Shown piece after piece: positions 1 through 23,239 of a stretch of DNA of 64,000 bases. The notes below the pieces were generated by a model, which saw nothing but the letters and a program-made list of their open reading frames with translations, was not told the DNA's origin and made no database searches. This stretch comes from a bacterium (GTDB lineage Bacteria; UBP7; UBA6624), in assembly GCA_002716355.1 (NCBI GenBank), contig PBAU01000002.1, positions 107,121 through 171,120 of the forward strand. Reading direction: 5' to 3'. The position numbers were made by a program, and so were the translations under genes. Each line of letters starts with the position of its first letter. The first letter of the stretch is position 1.

Positions 1-228
1 AATGCGTATCTTGGAGAGGCTGCAGGAAAATTCACAAGAACGCCAGCTGGCCATCCTGAAGGTTACCTCGAGGCTTTTGCAAACATTTACAGATGGTTTG
101 CCCGTTCGATACGGGGTGAGGAGAATGTTCCTGAATCGTATGCATCCATTGAGGATGGAGTCCGTGGGATCCGTTTCATCGAGGCTGCTATCGAATCATC
201 AGACAGTGAAACCTGGATTGATTTTTGA
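1..228 (+). CDS. Gfo/Idh/MocA family oxidoreductase, C-terminal end (partial)
   Basis: Only the last 75 codons are inside the window, in frame 1, ending at TGA 226-228. The translated tail contains T-P-A-G-H-P-E-G-Y-L-E-A-F-A-N-I-Y, a conserved C-terminal signature of NAD(P)-dependent Gfo/Idh/MocA sugar oxidoreductases, and closes with E-D-G-V-R-G-I-R-F-I-E-A-A. Members of this family oxidise or reduce sugars and inositols; the substrate cannot be read from this fragment. An ATG-started reading frame over the same bases in frame 2 has no family resemblance and is a shadow. The stop overlaps the TTG start of the next gene, so the two are probably co-translated. Confidence 0.85.
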   Translation, partial: NAYLGEAAGKFTRTPAGHPEGYLEAFANIYRWFARSIRGEENVPESYASIEDGVRGIRFIEAAIESSDSETWIDF

Positions 229-1364
229 TTGTGAAAAATTCTTATTTCCTACTTTTTTTAGTCATTGTTTTTTCAGGTTGTCTTAAAACCACTAAAGGAT
301 CAGAAGCTCCTCGCATTGTCGAGCAAACCCTTAAGTCTGAATTGTCACCCTGGGAAGAGGATCAGATGTTGACGCAATTGAATACAAGGGATCTCTTAAG
401 GAGAAAAATGTCTGAGCCTCTTGCTTACGAGCTTTTGGCAAGGCCGAACATCCCGCAAGAAAAACATCGTGACGCAATCAACTATCTTAAAGACATCAAC
501 AATGCAAACTTTGGGGATGAGGTCATCAATGCCAGCATACTATTAAGCGAACGTGGGGTTGCATTGGCCCATCTTGGGGTGCTTCTCATGGAGGCCGAAG
601 AGCTTGATTTTGACAAAACATGGGATGCCATAGGTAAACTTTATACAGATGAAACCCTGACCGCCTATCTTTTTGCCGGACTTCTTCTTTCGGATTACGA
701 CACTGCGAAAAACGCAATAGAGAAAGAAGAGGATGGTGTGTTCATACTGATCAGCTCAACATCCTTGGTTCCTGACGGTGAGGTCCGTAATAAGTTAACG
801 AATTATGCTATCGCCATTCTTTCAGATGCGGAAACAGATGATTTGGATATTCTTGAGGCTGGTATTTTGGCTATGAAGGACAATGAATACGGCCTTGACA
901 TTATGAGGGATTCGTTGATGGCAACTGCAGAAAACCATTCTTCAATAAATATCAGGTTTGCTGCGCTTGAGGCTCTTGGAAATGAAGTAGAAACAATCGA
1001 AATGAAAGCCATTCCGGTAATGAAGTACGACGTCAACTCTTTTTCCGTAAAGCCAGGCCAGCCTGTCAGGATCATCTTAAAGAACGAAGAGTCGATGCCA
1101 CATAATGTTGTTATTATTGAACCAGGATCCTTTCCAGACAAAATCATTGAAGAGCTTGCCGACCTGTATGGCTCTGCAGATGCTTCAGGTTTGGATTACA
1201 TCCCACAAACTGACACGGTTCTTTTCCATACTGCAATGATAAATGTTGACGAGTCTACAGAATTGCTGTTTTTTGCACCTGAGGATGAAGGTGTTTACCC
1301 TTATCTATGCACTTATCCAGGTCATTGGGCAACCATGAACGGCATCATGGAAGTCAAGAATTAA
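225..1364 (+). CDS. Cupredoxin (plastocyanin/azurin-like) lipoprotein
   Basis: Predicted envelope lipoprotein with a C-terminal blue-copper domain. The start is TTG 225 (GTG 231 is an alternative), overlapping the stop of the oxidoreductase. Residues 1-19 are a lipoprotein signal ending in V-F-S-G-C, so Cys19 would be lipidated. Residues about 30-265 are mostly helical and match no family I can name. Residues about 265-379 form a cupredoxin with type 1 copper ligands in order: His293 (M-P-H-N-V-V), Cys362, His367 and Met371 (Y-L-C-T-Y-P-G-H-W-A-T-M). Such domains are known in PVC/FCB secreted dehydrogenases and heme proteins as electron carriers. The domain is clear; the electron partner is unknown. 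The same C-x4-H-x3-M ligand loop recurs at the end of the oxidase subunit at 18139-18882. Confidence 0.8.
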   Translation: MIVKNSYFLLFLVIVFSGCLKTTKGSEAPRIVEQTLKSELSPWEEDQMLTQLNTRDLLRRKMSEPLAYELLARPNIPQEKHRDAINYLKDINNANFGDEVINASILLSERGVALAHLGVLLMEAEELDFDKTWDAIGKLYTDETLTAYLFAGLLLSDYDTAKNAIEKEEDGVFILISSTSLVPDGEVRNKLTNYAIAILSDAETDDLDILEAGILAMKDNEYGLDIMRDSLMATAENHSSINIRFAALEALGNEVETIEMKAIPVMKYDVNSFSVKPGQPVRIILKNEESMPHNVVIIEPGSFPDKIIEELADLYGSADASGLDYIPQTDTVLFHTAMINVDESTELLFFAPEDEGVYPYLCTYPGHWATMNGIMEVKN

Positions 1365-11531: not shown

Positions 11532-12141
11532 TTCCAAGTTTCTTTATGTTGGACTGGATTCCGTTAAAGATTTGTTATTTGATGGTTGCAAATCAATCAA
11601 AGAAATTTTTACTTTTTTGAATTTTCACATGCATGCGCAAGAGGCCAGCTCTCTAATCGAAACAGTTCGAGGCCATTCAGGTGCTATATGTTTTTTCAAA
11701 TCTTCAATTCCAGAAGATTTATTAGAGAAAAAAAATTTATGTCAATCAAAGAAATATCTTTGTATAAAAGTGTATTCTGACAATTTGTATTTCCAAGAAT
11801 TGCCTTCACGAAAAACGATAAAAATTTCTTATCCTGAATTGGATTTAGACAATAACAACGGATTGCTGGGTGTGCAAATGAATCGTATTGCTAAAATGGT
11901 TAATGAGGTTGACAATGCTTTTTTGATAGTTAACCCAATTCAAGATGACAGTTTCCTGCCAACATTTTTAAAACTTGACCAATTGTTTTGGCTCTTGAGA
12001 GACTTGGAGAAAGTTAATCTTGTAGCGATTGAAAATCTTTGTATCTCAGATCCAGAAGCATGGGGGGTGGATGAGGGTTCTGAACCCAATCAATTTCTTA
12101 TGACAATGGCATCTATTGTTACCACAAGGAAAGCTAGTTAA
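11524..12141 (+). CDS. Hypothetical protein downstream of gyrA
   Basis: A 205-residue protein from TTG 11524, which overlaps the end of gyrA; a TTG five codons earlier is possible. I recognise no family. It has no signal peptide or membrane segment. The sequence starts S-K-F-L-Y-V-G-L-D-S-V and alternates beta-like and helical stretches, ending with a helical segment rich in Asn/Leu. Its 3' end overlaps the convergent sco1 gene by 8 bases. The overlap with gyrA suggests one transcript. Expression is unproven and codon content is as AT-rich as its neighbours. Confidence 0.5.
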   Translation: MSNSKFLYVGLDSVKDLLFDGCKSIKEIFTFLNFHMHAQEASSLIETVRGHSGAICFFKSSIPEDLLEKKNLCQSKKYLCIKVYSDNLYFQELPSRKTIKISYPELDLDNNNGLLGVQMNRIAKMVNEVDNAFLIVNPIQDDSFLPTFLKLDQLFWLLRDLEKVNLVAIENLCISDPEAWGVDEGSEPNQFLMTMASIVTTRKAS

Positions 12142-12751
12142 ATATATTTTGATATAGTGATATAAGTTTTTGTTCAAAATTTTTCTCATCAAACCTAACA
12201 ATGGCTCTGACGTAATTTTCTTTGTCAATTAGTAGAAGGTAGTTGGCATGAGCAATGTCGAACAAACCATCATTTTCAACCTCGTCCATTCCGCTCTTGA
12301 AACCATTAACTATTACATTTCTGATATCACTTTCTTCCCCTGTTAAGAAATTCCACCTCTCCTCAATTATTGACATTTCTTGGATGTATTCTTTAAGTCG
12401 TTTAGGGTTGTCATATTGTGGATCAACGGTAATGCTGATAAACTCAAGTTCGATATCGGGATATTTATCTTTAAAATTTTTTAATTTAGATATTTGCATT
12501 GGACACACACTTGTGCATTTTGTAAAAAAGAAATTTACAGCCCAATATTTTCCAGCCAACGTCTTGCTGGAAAACTGCTTTTCATTTTGATTGATTAAAT
12601 CAAAAGAGGGCGCCTTAAAGAGTTCCGGTAATGAATTTTTTCTCATATTGATTGCAAAAAAAATTAATACAATCGGAAGGATAATCATGATTATGAATAT
12701 TGGTCTTATCCATTTCTTTGCTTCATCATAAGTTTTTGGTATCTTCATCAT
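12134..12751 (-). CDS. sco1: Sco1/SenC copper chaperone for cytochrome oxidase
   Basis: A membrane-anchored, thioredoxin-fold protein that delivers copper to, or reduces, the CuA site of oxidase subunit II. Residues 15-35 form the N-terminal anchor. The copper motif is C-T-S-V-C (Cys79, Cys83) and the third ligand is His168 in D-I-A-H-A-N-Y, so all three ligands are present. The length of 205 residues is normal. It is transcribed away from ctaA with 44 bases between starts, placing a shared divergent promoter at the head of the oxidase block. It overlaps the convergent hypothetical gene by 8 bases. Confidence 0.9.
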   Translation of the reverse strand: MMKIPKTYDEAKKWIRPIFIIMIILPIVLIFFAINMRKNSLPELFKAPSFDLINQNEKQFSSKTLAGKYWAVNFFFTKCTSVCPMQISKLKNFKDKYPDIELEFISITVDPQYDNPKRLKEYIQEMSIIEERWNFLTGEESDIRNVIVNGFKSGMDEVENDGLFDIAHANYLLLIDKENYVRAIVRFDEKNFEQKLISLYQNIFN

Positions 12752-12795: not shown

Positions 12796-13602
12796 ATGAT
12801 ACAAAGAAATCTTAAAATTACAATTTATGCGACAATTTTTCTAATTGCGTTAGGTGCATATACAACCGCAAGCGGATCAGGCATGGGTTGTGCTGATGTG
12901 TATCCCCTTTGCGATAGTGGCTGGTTGCCAAATTTTGATAATCCTGAACAAGTCACAGAATGGTTACATAGGCTTGGAGCAGCTATTGTGGGTCTTTGTG
13001 CATTTTTTGCTTTTTTCAAATCTTTCAAAACACCATTCAGGAAAATTGCCATGACTTCATGCTTGATTCTTTTGTTTCAGGGTGCATTAGGTGCGTTTAC
13101 GGTGAAAACCGAATTGCAGGAACCTTGGTTGATTTTTGCACATCTTTTTACAAGCATGTTGTTTTTGGGCTCGTTAGCAGCATGGTATACAGCTACAGAA
13201 AATTTAGAATTTAATGAAGACACCTTAGCTTTTACAAGAATATCTAAAATTTGTTGCATATTTACAATGTTACAAATTGCAATTGGTGCAATGCATGTGC
13301 ATTTGTTTAAAGGTTCAGCTCATGTTTTGATTACCCATATTGTTTTAGGCTTTCTTGTTACAGGTTTTTCTATGAGTTCAATGGCAAGAGCTAAAAGAAC
13401 TAAGCAGGATCAAAAAATCATCAAGAGAAGTTCATGGGCTGCTTACCTTTCGGTTTTGCAAATACTCTTGGGAGCTGGTGTTTTCTTATCGATGGCAGCC
13501 CCCAGCTACCCACCTTACATCACTTTGCACTTGATGATTGCTGCAATTATTTGGTTTATGCATGTTTCAAATTTTTTCACAAAGGCTGAAGAATCTATTT
13601 GA
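12796..13602 (+). CDS. ctaA: Heme A synthase (CtaA/COX15)
   Basis: An integral membrane enzyme that oxidises heme O to heme A for the aa3-type oxidase. The 268 residues contain about eight membrane segments. Conserved histidines are visible in W-L-H-R-L-G-A near residue 58, A-H-L-F-T near 117 and in the second half (M-H-V-H-L-F, L-H-L-M-I). The N-terminal T-T-A-S-G-S-G-M-G-C and W-P-like region of the family are present, with a cysteine pair (G-C-A-D-V-Y-P-L-C). It is directly followed by ctaB with a 4-base overlap, the usual pairing of heme O and heme A synthesis. Confidence 0.88.
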   Translation: MIQRNLKITIYATIFLIALGAYTTASGSGMGCADVYPLCDSGWLPNFDNPEQVTEWLHRLGAAIVGLCAFFAFFKSFKTPFRKIAMTSCLILLFQGALGAFTVKTELQEPWLIFAHLFTSMLFLGSLAAWYTATENLEFNEDTLAFTRISKICCIFTMLQIAIGAMHVHLFKGSAHVLITHIVLGFLVTGFSMSSMARAKRTKQDQKIIKRSSWAAYLSVLQILLGAGVFLSMAAPSYPPYITLHLMIAAIIWFMHVSNFFTKAEESI

Positions 13603-14492
13603 AAAAAAAATTCCCTTATGTAGATATTACAAAACCAAGAATAACCTTTTTGGTTTTGCTAAGTACTGCTGTAGGTTTTTTTGCAGATACACAAGGTGGT
13701 CCTGGTGAATTTTGGCAATATTTTTTGTTTTTACTTTTGGGAACCGGTTTAGCTTCTGCGTCAGGCAGTGTGTTCAATAACATTCTTGACAGGGATATGG
13801 ATGCTTTGATGAATAGAACGAAAGAAAGGGCCATGCCGACAAAGAAAATTAAGGTCAAAGATGCTTTTTTTTATGCTTTTTTCCTTTTGTTTTCTGGGCT
13901 AATAATTCTTTGGAATTATTGCAATTCCATTTCAGCAGTACTTGCCTTTTTAGCAGTTTTTCTTTACGTTGTCTATACGTTTTTCTTAAAACGAAAAACT
14001 TCATTCTGTACTGTTGTGGGTGGAGCGCCAGGCGCTTTACCACCTTTGGTTGGCTATGCTGCCTCCAGAGGGGATCTGGGTGAGCCATTCGGAATTGCCT
14101 GGATGCTGTTTTATGTCATGTTTTTTTGGCAACCACCACATTTTTGGGCCCTAGCACTTAAGCATAAAGACGACTACAAGAAAACTGATTTCAAGATGTT
14201 ACCAGTTACCGACTCGGTTGATGTAACAAAAAAACAAATTCTTATTTACACAATAGTCATGGCAGTATTTGTTTTTGTGTTTGCAATAGAATTTGTTAAC
14301 CAGTTTTTCGTGCAGGTTTTACTGGTTCTGGCAACGTTATATTATCTTAGAGACACTTTCATGTTTTTGTCTAAAAAAGAAAATAAAAAATCAGCAAATG
14401 CATTATTCAAGACATCAGTATTTTTTATGGGTTTGTTTATGATTTTTTTATTGGTTGAATTTGTGCCCTTGAACCAAATCTCTCGTTTTTAA
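13599..14492 (+). CDS. ctaB: Protoheme IX farnesyltransferase (heme O synthase)
   Basis: A UbiA-family membrane prenyltransferase that adds a farnesyl group to heme B. The 297 residues show the family start Y-V-D-I-T-K-P-R and the prenyl diphosphate motif N-N-I-L-D-R-D-M-D-A near residue 62, then the second motif region P-P-H-F-W-A-L-A and D-D-Y-K-K-T-D-F-K-M-L-P-V. About eight or nine membrane segments are evident. The start is TTG 13599 overlapping the ctaA stop (TTGA). It is part of the oxidase operon and supplies heme O to CtaA. Confidence 0.93.
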   Translation: MKKKFPYVDITKPRITFLVLLSTAVGFFADTQGGPGEFWQYFLFLLLGTGLASASGSVFNNILDRDMDALMNRTKERAMPTKKIKVKDAFFYAFFLLFSGLIILWNYCNSISAVLAFLAVFLYVVYTFFLKRKTSFCTVVGGAPGALPPLVGYAASRGDLGEPFGIAWMLFYVMFFWQPPHFWALALKHKDDYKKTDFKMLPVTDSVDVTKKQILIYTIVMAVFVFVFAIEFVNQFFVQVLLVLATLYYLRDTFMFLSKKENKKSANALFKTSVFFMGLFMIFLLVEFVPLNQISRF

Positions 14493-14524
14493 TTATTGAA
14501 AAAGTTATACAATACCCTTTGGTT

Positions 14525-15511
14525 ATGTTTTTAGATTTCATACTTTCACCGCAAAATTGGCTTGATCCTGCAGGTCCAGTAGCATCAGACCAAAAAGACC
14601 TCTTTCTTTTTACCCTTTATCTGTGTATTGGAATATTCGTTATTGTGGGTGGCTTTATGCTTTATTCAATTTTGAAATTTAAAGCTAAACCAGGTGATGA
14701 GGAATTGCCTGATCAGAGTCATGATGGCACTCAATTAGAAATTGGATTAATGGTTGTTTCTGCAATTTTGGTTGCTGTTATAGCAGTGCCAAATGTTAAG
14801 CTTCTTTACAAATTGGCTGAACCCCCGCGTGGTTCAAACCCTTTGCAGGTTAATGTTATAGGCCATCAGTATTGGTGGGAGTTTGAAATACCTGAATACC
14901 AAATTGCAACAGCAAATGAATTCAAAATACCTATCGGAAGACCAATAGAGTTTAATGTAAGCTCTGTAGATGTTATTCATAGTTTTTGGGTTCCAAGATT
15001 GGGCGGTAAGGTTGATGCCGTGCCTGGTCGCGATAATTATTTATGGTTTCAGGCGGATCAGGAAGGTTGGTATTCTGGACAATGCGCTGAACTTTGCGGA
15101 TCCTCTCATGCAAAAATGAAATTCGAAGTTCATGCTGTTAATGATGAGGAATTTTTAGCATGGGTTGAGAAAGAGGCTGCACCTGCAGAACAGCCAATCA
15201 CAGAGTTGGCGAAAGAAGGAAAGGAGCTTTTCTTAACGAAAATGTGTGTCACATGTCATGCGGTCAAGGGTTACGATGGTGCTATTGGTATAACCGGACC
15301 AAATTTGTCTCATTTTGGAAGTCGTAGAAAGTTAGCCGGTATGTGGGTTGAAAACACCAAAGACAATCTTGAAGATTGGTTGGGTGATCCAGCTAGTTTT
15401 AAACCAGACAACATCATGGCGCTGCAGGGTCCAATGTATATTGATGATAAATTTGCTTTAACTAGAGATGAAATTGAAAAACTTGCAGCATACCTTAAGG
15501 AGCTTTACTGA
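14525..15511 (+). CDS. coxB: Cytochrome c oxidase subunit II with fused cytochrome c
   Basis: Carries the CuA centre and a C-terminal heme c, so the oxidase is caa3-type. Two membrane helices occur around residues 30-52 and 75-98. The CuA ligands are present: Cys187, Cys191, His195 and Met198 in Q-C-A-E-L-C-G-S-S-H-A-K-M, with the upstream His in D-V-I-H-S-F-W. A cytochrome c domain from about residue 225 has C-V-T-C-H (Cys241, Cys244, His245) and a possible Met ligand in N-I-M-A-L. I chose ATG 14525; a TTG two codons earlier is possible and neither has a clear ribosome site. It overlaps coxA by one base (TGATG). Confidence 0.93.
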   Translation: MFLDFILSPQNWLDPAGPVASDQKDLFLFTLYLCIGIFVIVGGFMLYSILKFKAKPGDEELPDQSHDGTQLEIGLMVVSAILVAVIAVPNVKLLYKLAEPPRGSNPLQVNVIGHQYWWEFEIPEYQIATANEFKIPIGRPIEFNVSSVDVIHSFWVPRLGGKVDAVPGRDNYLWFQADQEGWYSGQCAELCGSSHAKMKFEVHAVNDEEFLAWVEKEAAPAEQPITELAKEGKELFLTKMCVTCHAVKGYDGAIGITGPNLSHFGSRRKLAGMWVENTKDNLEDWLGDPASFKPDNIMALQGPMYIDDKFALTRDEIEKLAAYLKELY

Positions 15512-17382
15512 TGTCAGGACATAGTCACAAACTTGCTTTACCAAAATTTCTTTCTTTCTTGAAAAACAGACCTACTAAAGAGAATGGTTTGGTTAGTTGG
15601 CTTACAACAGTTGATCATAAAAGAATCGGAATACTGTATCTTTATACTTCATTTTTCTTTTTGTTTGTGGGTGGTATCGAGGCTTTGTTTGTAAGGTCGC
15701 AATTGTCAGCCAACGATCTAGAAATTTTTGTTGGCTCAACTTACAACCAATTGGTCACTATGCATGCTACAACAATGATTTTCCTTGCAATAATGCCTCT
15801 TGCTGCGGCATTTTTTAACTTTATGATTCCATTACAGATAGGAGCTCGTGATGTTGCTTTCCCAAGGTTAAATGCTTTCTCTTATTTTATGTATTTAGCT
15901 GGCGGGATTGTCTTGAATGCTTCTTGGTTTATGGGGGGCGCTTCAGACGCTGGGTGGTTTGCTTATGCGCCTTTAACATCAGCAACATACAGTCCAACTC
16001 ATGGCGTAGATTTTTGGATTTTGGGTTTGATTCTTACTGGTATTTCTTCTACTGTTGCTGCGATTAATTTCATAGTCACAATAATTAACATGCGGGCTCC
16101 AGGAATGACATTGATGAAAATGCCTGTTTTTTCATGGATGGCTTTTGTCACTGCGTTTTTGCTTGCTTTTGCTCTTCCGGTAATCACAATTGCATTGATT
16201 ATCCTTTTTATGGATCGAAATTATGGCACAACATTTTTTCAGACTGCAGCAGGGGGAGACCCTATATTATGGCAACACCTTTTCTGGGTGTTCGGTCACC
16301 CTGAAGTGTATATTATTGTTCTTCCGGCATTTGGTATAGTTTCAGAAATTATTCCTGTTTTTTCTAGAAAGCCTTTATTTGGTTACAAATTGGTTGTTTT
16401 GTCAGGTGCTGCTATTGGATTCATGGGATTTACAGTTTGGAGTCACCATATGTTTACTGTTGGAATGGGCCCAATTGTTAATTCTGCATTTTCAATTACA
16501 ACGGCAGCTATTGCGATTCCAACCGGAGTCAAAATATTTAATTGGATTTTGACACTTTGGAATGGAAAAATTAAATTTTCTGTTCCGATGATGTATTCAA
16601 CTGCATTAGTGTTCTTGTTTATGGTAGGTGGTTTTTCGGGCTTGATGCATGGTGCAGCTGCTTCTGATTTCCAACAGCATGATACTTATTTTGTTGTTGC
16701 ACATTTTCATTACACCATCTTAGGTGGTGGTCTTTTTGGGTTTTTAGCTGGCACTGTTTACTGGTTGCCTAAATTCTTTGGAAAAATCATGGATGAAGAG
16801 CGTGGCCGAAAAATATTTTGGTGGATTTTCATTAGTTTCAATTTAACATTTTTCCCTATGCATTTCTTAGGCACAAGCGGTATGCCTAGAAGGATATACA
16901 CTTATTCATCTGATATGGAATGGACAGCATTAAATGGTTTCATAACATTAGCTTCATTTGTTTTGGGAATTGCCCTGCTTGTCTTTTTTATAGAAGTTAT
17001 CAAAGCTGTTAAAAGTAAAAATAAAGCTTCAGCCGATCCATGGGATGCTCGTACTCTTGAGTGGAGTATTCCCTCACCACCGCCAGTTTACAATTTTGCC
17101 GATTTGCCCAAGATTGAAAAGATTGATGAATTTTGGGAAAGTAAGGTTTCCAACAAGCCAATCAAGACATTACCAAGGGATCCTCATGGGATTCACATGC
17201 CGGGCAAATCATGGATGCCGCTCATCACTTCAATTGGCTTGTTGATTGCTTCTTTCGGTGCTGTTTATGAATCTGATTTGCGTTACATAGGATTAGGAAT
17301 TTTCTTATTGGCTTATTATGGTTGGGCTCTTGAGGGAGAGGCTGAATATTACCTTCCATACCCGAAGAAGGGGAAAAAGTAA
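15511..17382 (+). CDS. coxA: Cytochrome c oxidase subunit I
   Basis: The catalytic heme-copper subunit that reduces oxygen and pumps protons. The 623 residues include the twelve-helix core with the low-spin heme ligand in T-M-H-A-T-T-M-I-F, the CuB/crosslink motif V-F-G-H-P-E-V-Y-I-I, the H-H CuB pair in S-H-H-M-F-T-V-G, and the heme a3 region H-F-H-Y-T-I-L-G-G-G. After the core, residues about 500-623 form an extension with two more hydrophobic segments, as in caa3 oxidases where subunit I carries part of subunit III. It lies between coxB and coxC with 1-base overlaps on each side. Confidence 0.96.
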   Translation: MSGHSHKLALPKFLSFLKNRPTKENGLVSWLTTVDHKRIGILYLYTSFFFLFVGGIEALFVRSQLSANDLEIFVGSTYNQLVTMHATTMIFLAIMPLAAAFFNFMIPLQIGARDVAFPRLNAFSYFMYLAGGIVLNASWFMGGASDAGWFAYAPLTSATYSPTHGVDFWILGLILTGISSTVAAINFIVTIINMRAPGMTLMKMPVFSWMAFVTAFLLAFALPVITIALIILFMDRNYGTTFFQTAAGGDPILWQHLFWVFGHPEVYIIVLPAFGIVSEIIPVFSRKPLFGYKLVVLSGAAIGFMGFTVWSHHMFTVGMGPIVNSAFSITTAAIAIPTGVKIFNWILTLWNGKIKFSVPMMYSTALVFLFMVGGFSGLMHGAAASDFQQHDTYFVVAHFHYTILGGGLFGFLAGTVYWLPKFFGKIMDEERGRKIFWWIFISFNLTFFPMHFLGTSGMPRRIYTYSSDMEWTALNGFITLASFVLGIALLVFFIEVIKAVKSKNKASADPWDARTLEWSIPSPPPVYNFADLPKIEKIDEFWESKVSNKPIKTLPRDPHGIHMPGKSWMPLITSIGLLIASFGAVYESDLRYIGLGIFLLAYYGWALEGEAEYYLPYPKKGKK

Positions 17383-18134
17383 TGGAGGCTTTGAAGTTGC
17401 AACCTGTAATAACAGCTTTTACTGTATTCGGTATTTTTGTTTGTGTTCTTTTGACTTATTATGCTCTATTAAACCTTTTCAAAAGCTTCCCTCGCATAAG
17501 GTCCAAAAAAGACAAAGAAGCAATTGCAGCTGAGGATGCTGACGTGCATCACCATGTTGATACATACACAGGTGAGCCAAACATAAAGCTTTTTTGGTGG
17601 GTATTTCTAGCTTCTGACTGTATGTTTTTTGGCTCTTTGATTACAGCTTATTTGATATACAAAGGTCAAAGTCTAGTCGGACCTTATCCATTGGATGTTT
17701 TTGATATGGAACTAACCACAATCAGCACATTCATTTTGCTTTTAAGCAGTTTTTTTATGGTTTTAACATTGTCCTCTATCCAAAAGGGTGATTTGGGCAA
17801 GTTTAGATTTTGGTGTTTTGCAACATTCTTGTGCGGGTTGACTTTTTTAGGTTTTCAAGTTTACGAGTTTGAGCATTTCATACATGAAGGACTACGATTG
17901 AAAACCAACCTGTTCGGAAGTACTTTTTATCTTCTAACAGGCACACATGGTGTGCACGTTGCAATCGGTGTTTTATGGCTTTTGGGAATGTTTATTTATT
18001 CCTTTTGGGGTGGCATTACAAAGGAGAGAGCTATAGAAGTAGAAATTGCCGGACTTTATTGGCATTTTGTTGATGTTGTTTGGATTGTTATTTTTTCTGT
18101 AATTTATTTGATGGAGCTACCAATCGGAGGTTAA
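17382..18134 (+). CDS. coxC: Cytochrome c oxidase subunit III
   Basis: A 250-residue membrane subunit. After an extra N-terminal helix (residues 8-30) and a polar stretch with D-V-H-H-H-V-D-T-Y-T-G, the family core begins with F-W-W-V-F-L-A-S-D-C-M-F-F-G-S-L. Conserved features include E-F-E-H-F-I, L-L-T-G-T-H-G-V-H-V and Y-W-H-F-V-D-V-V-W. It stabilises subunit I and its proton uptake. It overlaps coxA by one base (AATGG after the stop) and is followed by coxD after 4 bases. Confidence 0.94.
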   Translation: MEALKLQPVITAFTVFGIFVCVLLTYYALLNLFKSFPRIRSKKDKEAIAAEDADVHHHVDTYTGEPNIKLFWWVFLASDCMFFGSLITAYLIYKGQSLVGPYPLDVFDMELTTISTFILLLSSFFMVLTLSSIQKGDLGKFRFWCFATFLCGLTFLGFQVYEFEHFIHEGLRLKTNLFGSTFYLLTGTHGVHVAIGVLWLLGMFIYSFWGGITKERAIEVEIAGLYWHFVDVVWIVIFSVIYLMELPIGG

Positions 18135-18138
18135 TTTT

Positions 18139-18882
18139 ATGTCGGACAATAAAGACCATGCATCTGTAAAACAATACATACAGGTTGCAATTATTTTAGC
18201 TTTGATAACTTGGCTTGAAGTAGTGATGCCGAACTGGCCTGTTCAATGGGTATTTACATTTGGTTTGTTGATTTTGGCAATTTTTAAATTTGTTTATGTA
18301 ATACAGATTTTCATGCATCTCAAATATGACAATAAGTTTTTCACAATATTATTGTTTTTTGGATTATTTTTAGCTGTAGGCACGATTTCAGCATTAATGA
18401 AAATTTATGATAGGGATTTCACTCTTCCATCGTTTATGGCACAATCAATGGGTCATGAGGAAACTAGCACGGATCATTCAGGAGAATCTGATCAAGCCAG
18501 TGTGGTTGAGGATTGTGCAGAAAGGGTGCCCTTTGATATAGAGATCATCGCTTCCGATCCAATGAATTTTGATATAGACGAGATAGTCGTTCCTTCTTGT
18601 TCAACAATAACCCTGACACTTGTAAATGATTCAAATATGGAGCATAATTTCGTTCTCATTTCTGAAGGGAAAGGAAATGAAATTGCTATGGCTGCAGTTG
18701 ATGCAGGCCCCTTGAATAACTATGTTCCAGAATCAGAAGATGTTCTTTTTGGAGGGGCTCTTGTTAAACCTCAAATTACAGAATCTTTTACATTTGATTC
18801 TCCTCCAATTGGTGAGTATGAATTTTTATGCACTTTTCCTGGTCATTATGTATTCATGAAAGGTTCTTTTACCGTTGAGTGA
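18139..18882 (+). CDS. coxD: Cytochrome c oxidase subunit IV fused to a cupredoxin domain
   Basis: A 247-residue protein with two parts. Residues 1-95 are a prokaryotic oxidase subunit IV with three membrane helices (I-L-A-L-I-T-W-L-E-V; F-K-F-V-Y-V-I-Q-I-F-M-H-L-K-Y). After a polar, acidic linker (about 100-125), residues 128-247 are a cupredoxin with all four type 1 copper ligands: His169 (M-E-H-N-F-V), Cys231, His236 and Met240 (L-C-T-F-P-G-H-Y-V-F-M). Typical CoxD proteins are only about 100 residues, so the cupredoxin is an addition. By topology it would sit on the periplasmic face near CuA and cytochrome c of CoxB, so I infer a built-in electron donor or a copper-holding module. Confidence 0.85.
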   Translation: MSDNKDHASVKQYIQVAIILALITWLEVVMPNWPVQWVFTFGLLILAIFKFVYVIQIFMHLKYDNKFFTILLFFGLFLAVGTISALMKIYDRDFTLPSFMAQSMGHEETSTDHSGESDQASVVEDCAERVPFDIEIIASDPMNFDIDEIVVPSCSTITLTLVNDSNMEHNFVLISEGKGNEIAMAAVDAGPLNNYVPESEDVLFGGALVKPQITESFTFDSPPIGEYEFLCTFPGHYVFMKGSFTVE

Positions 18883-18896
18883 TTGGTGGAGTGTTT

Positions 18897-19304
18897 ATGA
18901 GTAAAAAAGAACCAAAAGTAATTGGTATTGGTGGTATTTTATTCAAATCAAAAAATCCTGATAAAACTAAAAAATGGTATCAAGAAAATTTAGGATTACC
19001 AACAGATCAATGGGGAACAATGTTTAAATCAAGAGATATTGATAACCCTGATCAAGTAAATTATCTTCAATGGAGTCCCTTTGATAAAAAAACTGATTAT
19101 TTTGATCCTTCTAAAAAAGAATTTATGATTAATTATAGGGTTCAAAATATTGAAGAATTTGTGAAAGTTTTAAAAGACAAAGAAATAACTGTTTTAGATG
19201 AAATTACTGAATATGATGGAATAGGTAAATTTGTTCATATTCTTGACCCTGAAGGTAATAAAATTGAACTTTGGGAACCACCAAAGTCCAACACAGTTGA
19301 GTAA
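18897..19304 (+). CDS. VOC (glyoxalase/bleomycin resistance) family protein
   Basis: A 135-residue single-domain VOC protein. ATG 18897 is chosen because GGTGGAG lies at 18885-18891; an upstream in-frame start overlaps coxD. Features are the first beta-alpha unit V-I-G-I-G-G-I-L-F-K, W-Y-Q-E-N-L-G-L-P and the closing D-P-E-G-N-K-I-E-L-W-E-P-P. Family members bind a divalent metal and act on varied small molecules; the function here cannot be assigned. It sits between coxD and ctaG, where an oxidase operon would not usually carry it, and reads as more A-rich (many Lys/Asn/Ile codons ending in A or T) than neighbouring genes, so it may be a later insertion. Confidence 0.82.
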   Translation: MSKKEPKVIGIGGILFKSKNPDKTKKWYQENLGLPTDQWGTMFKSRDIDNPDQVNYLQWSPFDKKTDYFDPSKKEFMINYRVQNIEEFVKVLKDKEITVLDEITEYDGIGKFVHILDPEGNKIELWEPPKSNTVE

Positions 19305-19309
19305 AGCTA

Positions 19310-20122
19310 TTGTTGTTAGGTTTATTTCTTCATCCTAGTTCCGAGCACTCAGCTCTTGATGGTCCTTACATATGGAATCATTCCGTGCCGGTAATATCCC
19401 TTTTACTAGGAATGCTATTTGCTTACTTGTTGGTAGTTGGGCCAAGAAGAAAAGACTGGGTTGAAAACAAATCCTTTCCATCGAAAAATTTTACTTATTG
19501 GCTATTGGGCCTTGTGTCTTTATATTTGGCTATTGCTTCGCCAATAGATCACATTGGTGAAAAGTATTTATTTTGGGTGCATATGGTTCAGCATATCATT
19601 TTGATATTCATATCGCCTATCTTTTTTCTCCTAGCCATTCCACAATGGATGGCAGAAAGACTATTTGCAAAGAACTCAAAATTAGAGAAAATTACTCATC
19701 CTTTTTTTGCTGCTTTAATATTTAATACCATTTTTATTTTTTGGCACATTCCTTATTTTTATGAGTTAGCACTAGTCAATAAAATGGTGCACGATCTTGA
19801 GCATTTAACCTTTGTTATTGGGGCTTTGATTATGTGGTGGCCCATTATTAGGCCAGTCAAAAGTTGGCAAAAGCAACCTGGTTCAAGCTTGCTTCTTTAT
19901 CTTTTTGTAATTGTGACATTTCAGATTCCTCTTTTTGTGCTTTTGACTTTTTCTCCTGATTTATGGTATCCATTTTATGGAGAGGCTTCAAGACTTGAAG
20001 GATGGTTGGATATTTCTGCAATTGAAGATCAGGCCTTAGGCGGATTGATAATGAAGACCATTGCCGGTTTTGCATATTTTGTTGCTTTTGTGTATGTTTG
20101 GTTGAAATGGGCTAAGGATTAA
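19310..20122 (+). CDS. ctaG: Cytochrome c oxidase assembly protein, caa3-type CtaG
   Basis: A 270-residue polytopic membrane protein of the caa3_CtaG family (different from the Cox11-type CtaG), needed for assembly of caa3 oxidase. It shows the family's W-V-H-M-V-Q-H-I-I-L-I-F-I-S-P, I-F-W-H-I-P-Y-F-Y-E-L-A and H-D-L-E-H-L-T-F histidine-rich helices. The start is TTG 19310, five bases after the VOC stop, with no strong ribosome site. The 3' end overlaps the convergent prolyl oligopeptidase gene by 11 bases, closing the oxidase block. Confidence 0.88.
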   Translation: MLLGLFLHPSSEHSALDGPYIWNHSVPVISLLLGMLFAYLLVVGPRRKDWVENKSFPSKNFTYWLLGLVSLYLAIASPIDHIGEKYLFWVHMVQHIILIFISPIFFLLAIPQWMAERLFAKNSKLEKITHPFFAALIFNTIFIFWHIPYFYELALVNKMVHDLEHLTFVIGALIMWWPIIRPVKSWQKQPGSSLLLYLFVIVTFQIPLFVLLTFSPDLWYPFYGEASRLEGWLDISAIEDQALGGLIMKTIAGFAYFVAFVYVWLKWAKD

Positions 20123-23100
20123 ATTCAATCCCCAGTTCATCAAAAACAAAAGCCCATGTATCTGCCAGCTCTTCAACTACCTTATGTAAAGGTTTGCCAG
20201 CTCCATGACCGGCATTTTTTTCAACCCGTAAGAGAGTTAATGATTGCGGATGCAGTTCTTGAACAAGTGCAGCGAATTTTCGTGCATGCAATGGATCCAC
20301 TCTTGTATCATGGTCAGCAGTTTTTAAAAGGAGATTAGGCCATTCTTCAGCTGATGGGACGTTATGGTAAGGGCTGTATGCATGCAGCCATTCAAAATCC
20401 TCTTTTTTGTCAGGGTCTCCGTATTCAGCTCTCCATAAACTTGCAATTAGGAATTTAGGGAATCGAATCATATCCAGCAATGGAACAGAGCACACTACAG
20501 CTTTAAAAAGTTCAGGTCTTTGGGTCATTGTTGCGCCAACCAGTAAGCCGCCATTGCTACCGCCAGAAATTACTATCTTGTTTGAATTTGTATATTTATT
20601 TTCTATTAGCCATTCAGCAGCTGCAATAAAGTCATCAAAAGTATTTTGTTTATTTCCCAACATGCCATCGTTATGCCACGAAGAACCATATTCACTGCCA
20701 CCTCTTAAATTTGGAAGAGCAAAAATTCCACCACTTTCCAAAAACGGGATTATGCTTGATCGAAATCCAGGAGTTTGCGAGATTGCAAATCCACCATAAC
20801 CGTATAGGTATGTTGGATTTTTTCCATCGAGAATAACATTTTTTTTATGGACGACAAACATTGTTACAATCGTCCCATCTTTTGATTCATATTCGACCTG
20901 CTTAACGGTTATGTCATCAGTTTTAGCATTAGATTTATTTTGTTCCCAGATTATTGTTTTGTCTGTTTTGTCATCCCACCTATAGATTGTTGTTGGGGAG
21001 TTGAAAGAAGTGTACGAGTAATAGTAAGGACCCTGCTCTTTTCTTGCGCTAAATGTTCCAATGCTCCCAATGCCAGGAAGCGGAATATCAGATATTTTGT
21101 TTGTTTCAGGATCCAATAACTTCATTACATGGTGTGCTTTTTTCATGTATCTCAACACTATTTTTCCACCTGCCCACCAAGCTTCAAACATGTTTTCACC
21201 TGGTTTTAAAACCAAAGTCCAGCTATTTTTTTGAAGTTTTGCGCTATCAAGCTGAATTTTCCAAAGCATGCCATTTGGACTATTTTCACTTGTTTCACTC
21301 ACGTAAAAAGCATCATTTCTGAAAAGCATTTGACCATAGTAGGTTTTGTGGTCCATTTCTGTAATCGGGATTATCTCATTCGAATCTTTTAAATTTTTGA
21401 TGAAAATTTGACTTGTATCCCAACCATTCCATGCATTTATGATTAGCCATTCGCCATTATCGCTTACCAAAGGTACTGGCCACTCCTCCTTTATCCTGCC
21501 TTCTCCGAAAATGTATTTATCATCTTGCCAGTTATCACCCATTTTGTGAAAATATATTTTTCGATAGTAATCTTCATCTCCTGCAGGTACAGTTCCTGGA
21601 ACAGGCCATCTGCCATAAAAAAATCCTGAATTGTCAGGTAGCCATGCTGGCGAACCCCAACGTGCATATGGAATTTCATCCTTGTATTTATATCCATCTT
21701 TAACTCTTTTGATATGTATGGTTGATTTCTCATCTCCATTTTCGCTAATACCATAAGCTATATGGCTTCCATCAGGAGAAATACTATACCAATCAAGACT
21801 CGTGGTGCCTTTTTCATTCCATGAATTTGGATTAAGAAGAATCGATCCAGATCCATCATTCGGATTCAGTCTTTCTTGAATTGGGTGTTTGCTTGAAGCC
21901 GGATAATCCTTCCAAAAAAGTACAGAGTGATTTTGGCCAGCTTTTCTTTCTGACCAAAACATTCTTTTGCCAAAAAATGTAGGAGCGCCAGTGCTATCGT
22001 TGTTTGTCAGTTTTTCAAAACTGGTTTTTAACTTTTCATGGTTTTTTAAATTATGCAAATAGGTTCTTGTTATTACATCTTGGCTGTCAGACCATTTAAG
22101 AACCTCATCAGACTCTCCATCCTCTAACCACCTGTAGTTGTCTGTAATCTCAATTCCATGCACGTTTTCAACAACAGGTATTTTTTTTGTCGGCAATATG
22201 AATGAAGCAGCAATAAGGCGTTCATCATCTTTCCAATCTTCTTCAATGGATAGGGAGGATGCATGACCTTCCATAGTAAGTGTTTCAACAATTGCTTCTG
22301 CAACATCCGCACCCCTTGCTCTAACTGATCTGCTTTGTTCCATGTGTATAAATTTTCCTGTTGTTTTTTGTGCAGATGTTAAACATGGTTCAGATACTCC
22401 ATTTACATCTCTGCCTTGAACATTAGTGCTCCCACATAAGTGAAGCTTCCTGGTTGCCCCCTCATAGTCATTGCATGTTGTTACATTTTCATTTTCAAAT
22501 CTTTTCGATAAATTGTCAGCTAGCCTAGCAACAAAGCTTTCTTTTGAGGTTTGTAATGATGTGCCATCAGAAAGACTGATCCCGCCTGCAGCCATTCCAT
22601 GAATACTTATAGTTATTGATTCGGGAAAGGTTTCAGTTGTTTTTTTGTGCATTGTGTGAAAAAGTGTCCTATCGTTATGAGCAGGATCGGATATTCCATA
22701 TGCTTTTCTTTCAGGCCTTGAGCATGCCGTTGTTGTTCCTGAACAACCAGAAGGTTTTTGATTTGTGCACCTGTGCGTCCCGCTAATGATTAAAACTTTT
22801 GCATTTGAATTTTTAAATATTTCCAAACCCTGCTTTAAGGTTCCATCAAATATTGGATGTGGTGTCTCCAAGATTAAATCTAATCCTTTTTTTCTCAAAA
22901 GCATCCATGGCCAACCTTTTTTTGAGGGACTCCATTGATAAACCTGATTTTTTTTATCGACACACAATCTGTAACCAGCCTGTTTTGCTTTTTCTGACGC
23001 TAGACCTGGTTGATTTTCAACAAGATGATCAAACGACATTTTCCATAAATTTTTGAGTTGCTTGCTTTCTTCTTGATATATCCCCTCATTAGGCTTCAGT

Positions 23101-23177
23101 ATGCTGTCAGAATTAATATTTTTCCAATCTGAATCTAAACATTCTGGAATCACAAAATTAAATAAAAAAATCCACAT
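20112..23177 (-). CDS. Prolyl oligopeptidase (S9A) with N-terminal hydrolase-like domain
   Basis: A 1021-residue protein; ATG 23177 follows AAGGAG at a good distance, so an upstream ATG is not used. Residues about 335-1021 are a complete prolyl oligopeptidase: W-L-E-D-G-E-S start, beta-propeller, and catalytic Ser874 (G-G-S-N-G-G), Asp957 (D-H-D-T-R-V-D-P) and His991 (N-A-G-H-G-A-G). It would cleave short peptides after proline. Residues about 90-300 are extra: L-E-T-P-H-P, S-G-T-H-R-C, D-P-A-H-N..L-F-H-T-M-H, S-I-H-G-M-A and H-M-E-Q-S-R-S-V-R. This His/Glu pattern resembles zinc amidohydrolases of the N-formylglutamate amidohydrolase type, but that is inference. The N-terminus (W-I-F-L-F-N-F-V-I-P) is weakly signal-like. 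Confidence 0.88.
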   Translation of the reverse strand: MWIFLFNFVIPECLDSDWKNINSDSILKPNEGIYQEESKQLKNLWKMSFDHLVENQPGLASEKAKQAGYRLCVDKKNQVYQWSPSKKGWPWMLLRKKGLDLILETPHPIFDGTLKQGLEIFKNSNAKVLIISGTHRCTNQKPSGCSGTTTACSRPERKAYGISDPAHNDRTLFHTMHKKTTETFPESITISIHGMAAGGISLSDGTSLQTSKESFVARLADNLSKRFENENVTTCNDYEGATRKLHLCGSTNVQGRDVNGVSEPCLTSAQKTTGKFIHMEQSRSVRARGADVAEAIVETLTMEGHASSLSIEEDWKDDERLIAASFILPTKKIPVVENVHGIEITDNYRWLEDGESDEVLKWSDSQDVITRTYLHNLKNHEKLKTSFEKLTNNDSTGAPTFFGKRMFWSERKAGQNHSVLFWKDYPASSKHPIQERLNPNDGSGSILLNPNSWNEKGTTSLDWYSISPDGSHIAYGISENGDEKSTIHIKRVKDGYKYKDEIPYARWGSPAWLPDNSGFFYGRWPVPGTVPAGDEDYYRKIYFHKMGDNWQDDKYIFGEGRIKEEWPVPLVSDNGEWLIINAWNGWDTSQIFIKNLKDSNEIIPITEMDHKTYYGQMLFRNDAFYVSETSENSPNGMLWKIQLDSAKLQKNSWTLVLKPGENMFEAWWAGGKIVLRYMKKAHHVMKLLDPETNKISDIPLPGIGSIGTFSARKEQGPYYYSYTSFNSPTTIYRWDDKTDKTIIWEQNKSNAKTDDITVKQVEYESKDGTIVTMFVVHKKNVILDGKNPTYLYGYGGFAISQTPGFRSSIIPFLESGGIFALPNLRGGSEYGSSWHNDGMLGNKQNTFDDFIAAAEWLIENKYTNSNKIVISGGSNGGLLVGATMTQRPELFKAVVCSVPLLDMIRFPKFLIASLWRAEYGDPDKKEDFEWLHAYSPYHNVPSAEEWPNLLLKTADHDTRVDPLHARKFAALVQELHPQSLTLLRVEKNAGHGAGKPLHKVVEELADTWAFVFDELGIEFNP

Positions 23178-23239
23178 TGTTTTTCTCCTTCTTTTGAATA
23201 ATTTGATTATAAGCAACCCTTTGTAATAGACTTTCTATT

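Follow-up and report, generated by a model that had tools for sequence, protein, structure and literature searches.

The gene downstream of coxC in the terminal oxidase operon of a marine bacterium encodes oxidase subunit IV (CoxD) fused in the same frame to a complete type 1 copper domain. The best explanation, which we regard as probable, is that this cupredoxin is a tethered electron carrier between a bc-type complex and the heme c and CuA of CoxB, heme having been exchanged for copper. The window, i.e., the whole 64,000-nucleotide stretch that was analysed (G000:C2:107121-171120), belongs to a MAG of 1.26 Mb and 87% completeness (G000) from the candidate phylum UBP7 ("Ca. Bimafiota"). For 'Candidatus Bimafiota', six genomes of 0.83-1.39 Mb are described from saline and marine waters (PMC11382960). 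The features of the window are collected in Table 1.

Table 1. Features of the oxidase locus and of the second cupredoxin gene (positions in the window)
Feature	Position	Strand	Basis
Second cupredoxin protein, lipoprotein-like, possible periplasmic partner	225-1364	+	PF00127, E 7.7e-10; tree
SCO1/SenC copper assembly protein	12134-12751	-	PF02630
ctaA-like and ctaB-like heme A synthesis genes	12796-13602, 13599-14492	+	Read from translation
coxB, subunit II, CuA motif and C-terminal cytochrome c domain (residues 231-329)	14519-15511	+	PF00116, PF00034, TIGR02866
coxA, subunit I	15511-17382	+	PF00115; TIGR02891 above cut-off
coxC, subunit III	17382-18134	+	PF00510
coxD-cupredoxin fusion gene, 247 aa	18139-18882	+	ORF; kept in congener UBP7_UBA7824 (G001)
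COX4_pro (CoxD) domain, residues 16-80	18184-18378	+	Pfam PF03626, E 1.9e-7
Acidic linker, residues 92-131, ~40 residues, net charge -7	18412-18531	+	
Azurin/auracyanin-type cupredoxin domain, residues 132-247	18532-18879	+	PF00127, E 7.1e-9; auracyanin A, E 5.5e-16
Copper ligand His169	18643-18645	+	Auracyanin A alignment and residue check
Copper ligand Cys231	18829-18831	+	Auracyanin A alignment and residue check
Copper ligand His236	18844-18846	+	Auracyanin A alignment and residue check
Copper ligand Met240	18856-18858	+	Auracyanin A alignment and residue check
ctaG, caa3 assembly factor	19310-20122	+	PF09678

The fusion gene is a single reading frame from ATG to TGA, free of internal stops and ambiguous bases. 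Three hydrophobic segments precede the linker, and this part of the protein scored 31.8 bits with PF03626 (Pfam cut-off, 28.9). Together with the position of the gene after coxC in the cox operon, this identifies it as a prokaryotic oxidase subunit IV (CoxD). Its score with the caa(3)-type oxidase subunit IV model TIGR02229 (NCBIfam) was 17.7 bits, below the threshold of 37.25. The C-terminal part scored 36.4 bits with PF00127 over residues 139-247 (Pfam cut-off, 21.2), as expected of a member of the plastocyanin/azurin superfamily (Copper-bind in Pfam). When PDB sequences were searched with phmmer, residues 131-246 matched auracyanin A, and further matches were the auracyanin-type blue copper protein 6kol (2.6e-14), auracyanin B, and azurins at about 1e-9. 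With the azurin equivalog TIGR02695 (NCBIfam), the domain scored 56.4 bits against a cut-off of 105.1; we therefore call it azurin/auracyanin-like rather than azurin itself. The four ligands follow the azurin pattern H...C-x4-H-x3-M and make up a complete type 1 set, each lying exactly where the original prediction had placed it. Its description of a three-helix CoxD joined to a complete type 1 copper domain in one frame was likewise borne out by Pfam, phmmer and the hydrophobic segments. AlphaFold2 models built from the 2-3 sequences usable as input had a low pLDDT (46 for the full length and 54 for the cupredoxin alone). Their secondary structure was compatible with three helices and beta strands, and a fold search with these models returned only noise.

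The operon has the order ctaA-like, ctaB-like, coxB, coxA, coxC, coxD, (glyoxalase) and ctaG, with SCO1 upstream on the other strand. CoxB combines COX2 and Cytochrom_C domains (Pfam), and the CoxB and CtaD_CoxA models of NCBIfam were matched above their cut-offs, which is the profile of a caa3 oxygen reductase. As CoxB has a cytochrome c domain at its C-terminus in addition to the CuA motif, the enzyme is a caa3 oxidase whose usual electron entry is intact. Two neighbouring genes are recorded here as separate observations. A glyoxalase-family gene (18879-19304, 425 bp) lies exactly between coxD and ctaG, is AT-rich (28% GC versus ~36% in its neighbours) and is flanked by GTTGAGT repeats; the congener has an empty site at this place. 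On the minus strand, positions 20112-23216 hold a 1034-aa frame, apparently for a prolyl-oligopeptidase-like enzyme that has ~340 additional residues at its N-terminus.

The same fusion was found in the congener, bacterium UBP7_UBA7824 (G001, contig DLTY01000049.1), an independent MAG that is 62% complete. The two proteins are 92% identical over residues 1-247, and the flanking cox genes are the same. With dS between the two genomes at about 0.6, the cupredoxin domain differs by 29 synonymous and 4 nonsynonymous changes (omega, 0.029); omega was 0.039 for the CoxD part and higher for the linker. The cupredoxin is under selection as strong as that acting on the membrane part. Both genomes are MAGs, which would speak for two genes having been joined by an assembly error or a frameshift, but the architecture is identical in two diverged MAGs with the same neighbours, and the window gene contains no ambiguous bases. 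The 92% identical copy in an independent MAG rules out a frameshift or misassembly, and we give the artefact reading a negligible probability. The fusion is thus real, as the purifying selection on the fused domain also indicates.

We then asked how widely such fusions occur. CoxD was present in 130 of 386 genomes, spread over bacterial families. At least 9 of these 130 carry a CoxD fused to one or two cytochrome c domains; this count is a lower bound because it comes from the long CoxD frames that were examined, and it comprises one further genome of the same family (G002, see below) and eight genomes outside UBP7 (loci L018, L012, L026, L034, L040, L041, L043 and L049). For the copper version, we used a profile (A5) made from an alignment covering both CoxD and the cupredoxin. 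Among 385 genomes, largely the same set as the 386, both halves occurred in one protein only in the congener and in the window gene, among the matches listed. The congener's fusion ranked at the top (E 6.6e-57), where a true fusion is expected. In 392 genomes of one further phylum, no CoxD-cupredoxin fusion was found among the matches listed. The architecture, whose distribution the original prediction had proposed to check, is therefore rare and so far specific to UBP7 in the ~780 genomes searched, among the matches listed. A genome search with PF00127 missed the domain that exists in G001 and is unreliable as a lone negative, so the A5 profile was used in its place. A scan of genome contigs with narrow patterns gave the congener as its sole match, and viral contigs held no relative of the fusion. 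The phylum of genome G331 is represented by 6 genomes only. Neither a CoxD-cupredoxin nor a CoxD-cytochrome c fusion was found described in the open-access literature.

A heme counterpart of the fusion is present in G002, a third genome from another genus of the same family and the sole same-family comparison beyond G000 and G001. Its gene order, coxA-coxC-coxD-ctaG, is that of the window. Its CoxD (245 aa) matched PF03626 and PF00034 and ends in a monoheme cytochrome c domain; the membrane parts of the two CoxD proteins correspond, and the proteins carry different payloads in the same C-terminal position. This heme domain resembles the C-terminal tail of the bc-type multiheme c subunit of G002 (35% identity, E 9e-30) much more than the heme c of CoxB (E 8e-4). 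In the window's genome, the bc-type complex is encoded at G000:C5 (L094 3896-7640) and consists of a Rieske protein, a split b6-type cytochrome b, which is the only cytochrome b match in that genome, and a hexaheme c subunit. The latter, orthologous to the G002 subunit, has five CXXCH motifs and one CAAxH (with an ambiguous base), followed by a clear TAG, and lacks the monoheme tail. Of the 3745 bases of this region, 89 are ambiguous. When the monoheme domain of G002 was used as a query (E<=1), G002 yielded 3 copies, and G000 and G001 yielded 0. The third G002 copy (L144; G002:C72, match 13664-13828, minus strand) lies in a secreted-looking 339-aa frame with a helix-hairpin-helix-like end. G002 also has a second Rieske/cytochrome b cluster at G002:C70 (L099), with a multiheme protein beside a molybdopterin-oxidoreductase-like gene.

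In this family, then, the monoheme domain is found on both complexes or on neither, in the latter case with a cupredoxin on CoxD; the pattern covers two genera, with the bc subunit taken from G000 and G002. Within the family, a heme carrier and a copper carrier appear to have replaced one another, probably with heme giving way to copper. A broader proposal is that the aerobic chain of UBP7 is wired and works without a diffusible cytochrome c, that the CoxD-borne carrier has switched as a whole between heme and type 1 copper within one family, and that the monoheme tail of the bc complex was lost or gained in step. We put this forward tentatively, at slightly less than an even chance. If it is true, a streamlined marine lineage could be saving iron by this exchange, in the way that plastocyanin takes the place of cytochrome c6.

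Other electron carriers in the window's genome were also sought. Among the monoheme cytochrome c families Cytochrom_C and Cytochrome_CBB3, CoxB was the sole match in this 87% complete MAG. NrfD is a marker of ACIII; it had no match in G000 or G001, and ACIII was rejected as the electron source. The only cupredoxin found in G000 besides the CoxD fusion was the 225-1364 protein, predicted from the start as a related cupredoxin lipoprotein. It is real and lipoprotein-like, but the relationship is distant: its domain is only ~30% identical to that of CoxD and is not its sister in the tree, where its nearest neighbours, with weak support (81/80), are cupredoxin domains that belong to larger proteins of other phyla. 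For the CoxD cupredoxin the tree gives no resolved sister, and its deep nodes lack resolution. The ~30% identity and the lack of pairing in such a tree lend no support to the idea that the CoxD cupredoxin arose as a duplicate of the 225-1364 protein.

The 225-1364 protein bears on a different reading, in which the CoxD cupredoxin does not itself visit the bc complex and is a docking or relay site for another periplasmic donor, such as this protein or an undetected carrier of the incomplete MAG. Against this, the 225-1364 gene is unlinked to the oxidase operon and its cupredoxin groups, if weakly, with larger proteins of other phyla. Moreover, the monoheme domain is absent from both the bc complex and CoxD in the window's genome, which points to a link from bc to CoxD. 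We consider the docking reading unlikely.

The original prediction had also offered storage of copper for CuA, and the domain could in principle store or deliver copper for CuA assembly, being of a copper type, on a subunit of a copper-requiring enzyme and with assembly genes in the neighbourhood. The analysis did not bear this idea out: a full type 1 set of ligands indicates electron transfer, SCO1 and CtaG are encoded separately by dedicated assembly genes, and relatives, G002 included, bear at the same position a cytochrome c, which is unable to store copper. We regard it as very unlikely. About as unlikely is a structural or decorative remnant with no redox role. The carrier role is deduced from sequence, but omega is 0.029, every ligand is kept, and electron carriers have been fused to CoxD repeatedly and independently.

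The electron-carrier reading is preferred for these reasons. The fusion, its ligand set and its conservation under selection support it directly, with the homology to auracyanin and azurin. So do the monoheme cytochrome c at the equivalent position of the G002 CoxD, together with the recurrence of CoxD-cytochrome c fusions elsewhere, and the detection of no monoheme cytochrome c other than CoxB in the MAG. As to topology, the loop charges of the fusion fit an N-terminus in and a C-terminus out. Heme c is attached only outside the cytoplasm, on the periplasmic side; since CoxD relatives bear heme c, the C-terminus of CoxD is probably exported to the periplasm. From such sequence features we infer copper binding, reach, electron flow and partners. 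Subunit IV of an A-type caa3 oxygen reductase would thus hold a type 1 copper carrier at its periplasmic C-terminus on a flexible tether. Electrons would pass from the quinol-oxidising bc-type complex, with its Rieske protein, split cytochrome b and hexaheme c subunit, to the CoxD cupredoxin, a one-electron carrier, and on to the heme c and CuA of CoxB. The tethered domain would fill the role played elsewhere by a small diffusible cytochrome c, and in G002 this job appears to fall to the monoheme c domains that CoxD and the bc complex each carry. A tethered carrier replacing or assisting soluble cytochrome c had been predicted. Its electron-carrier part is well supported by the G002 heme domain, the recurring fusions and CoxB as the sole monoheme match, whereas replacement is something we infer for a MAG that is 87% complete.

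Several points count against this carrier model. The candidate partners are all acidic (net charges: cupredoxin, -16; CoxB heme c domain, -3; hexaheme subunit, -24), which makes the docking mode puzzling. The completeness of G000 (87%) and G001 (62%) is such that a soluble carrier could be missed. CoxB has its own heme c, and an extra carrier is not strictly needed. Finally, the heme/copper correlation covers two genera.

We know of no agreed function for CoxD, and electron carriers seem to have been mounted on this subunit again and again. The fusion is real, conserved, rare and functionally interpretable, and the cells seem able to build an oxidase-wired carrier with either metal. Its main value is that a single small marine phylum offers both a heme and a copper version on one and the same subunit. 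The two come from one family, share their gene order and differ chiefly in which metal the tethered carrier holds. With this natural pair, one can test if tethering is by itself enough to make up for a mobile cytochrome c, and if exchanges of this kind are driven by the supply of metals in the ocean.

The closest parallels in architecture are the haloarchaeal ba3-type (B-type) oxidases, in which halocyanin is fused to CbaD, the one-helix subunit IIa (PMC3128077, PMC8305020). In both cases, the heme-copper oxidase has a small accessory membrane subunit that bears a blue copper carrier, read as a tethered redox partner. However, halocyanin-CbaD is archaeal and belongs to a B-type oxidase, with the one-helix subunit IIa after the cupredoxin, whereas the UBP7 case concerns a bacterial A-type caa3 oxidase, with a three-helix CoxD before the cupredoxin and a CoxB that has its own heme c. 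The window gene falls outside the halocyanin-CbaD type, as its fused subunit is the three-helix CoxD and its CoxA exceeds the CtaD/CoxA cut-off. The CoxD-cytochrome c fusions of G002 and the eight other genomes share the subunit, the C-terminal position and an electron-carrier payload, which is heme c instead of type 1 copper. In Sulfolobus, the SoxM supercomplex contains the blue copper protein sulfocyanin (PMC3062577), similarly a blue copper intermediate between a bc1-analogous complex and an oxidase, but as a separate subunit of an archaeal supercomplex and not fused to CoxD. By sequence, the closest solved relatives of the copper domain are the auracyanins of Chloroflexota (PDB 2aan, 1qhq/1ov8 and 6kol/6l9s), which accept electrons from a quinol-oxidising complex (PMC8552683). 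Auracyanins are separate proteins serving ACIII and photosynthetic reaction centres, whereas no ACIII marker was detected in the window's genome. In the ACIII of Flavobacterium, a mobile N-terminal heme domain of ActA is proposed to reach the oxidase (PMC8552683). Like the CoxD cupredoxin, it would be a mobile carrier, anchored in the membrane, that takes electrons to the oxidase, but it carries heme c and resides on the quinol-oxidising complex, whereas the UBP7 carrier resides on the oxidase. Tethered carriers are thus known elsewhere, and what would be new here, judging by the sequences, is a carrier fused to the CoxD of a bacterial A-type caa3 oxidase.
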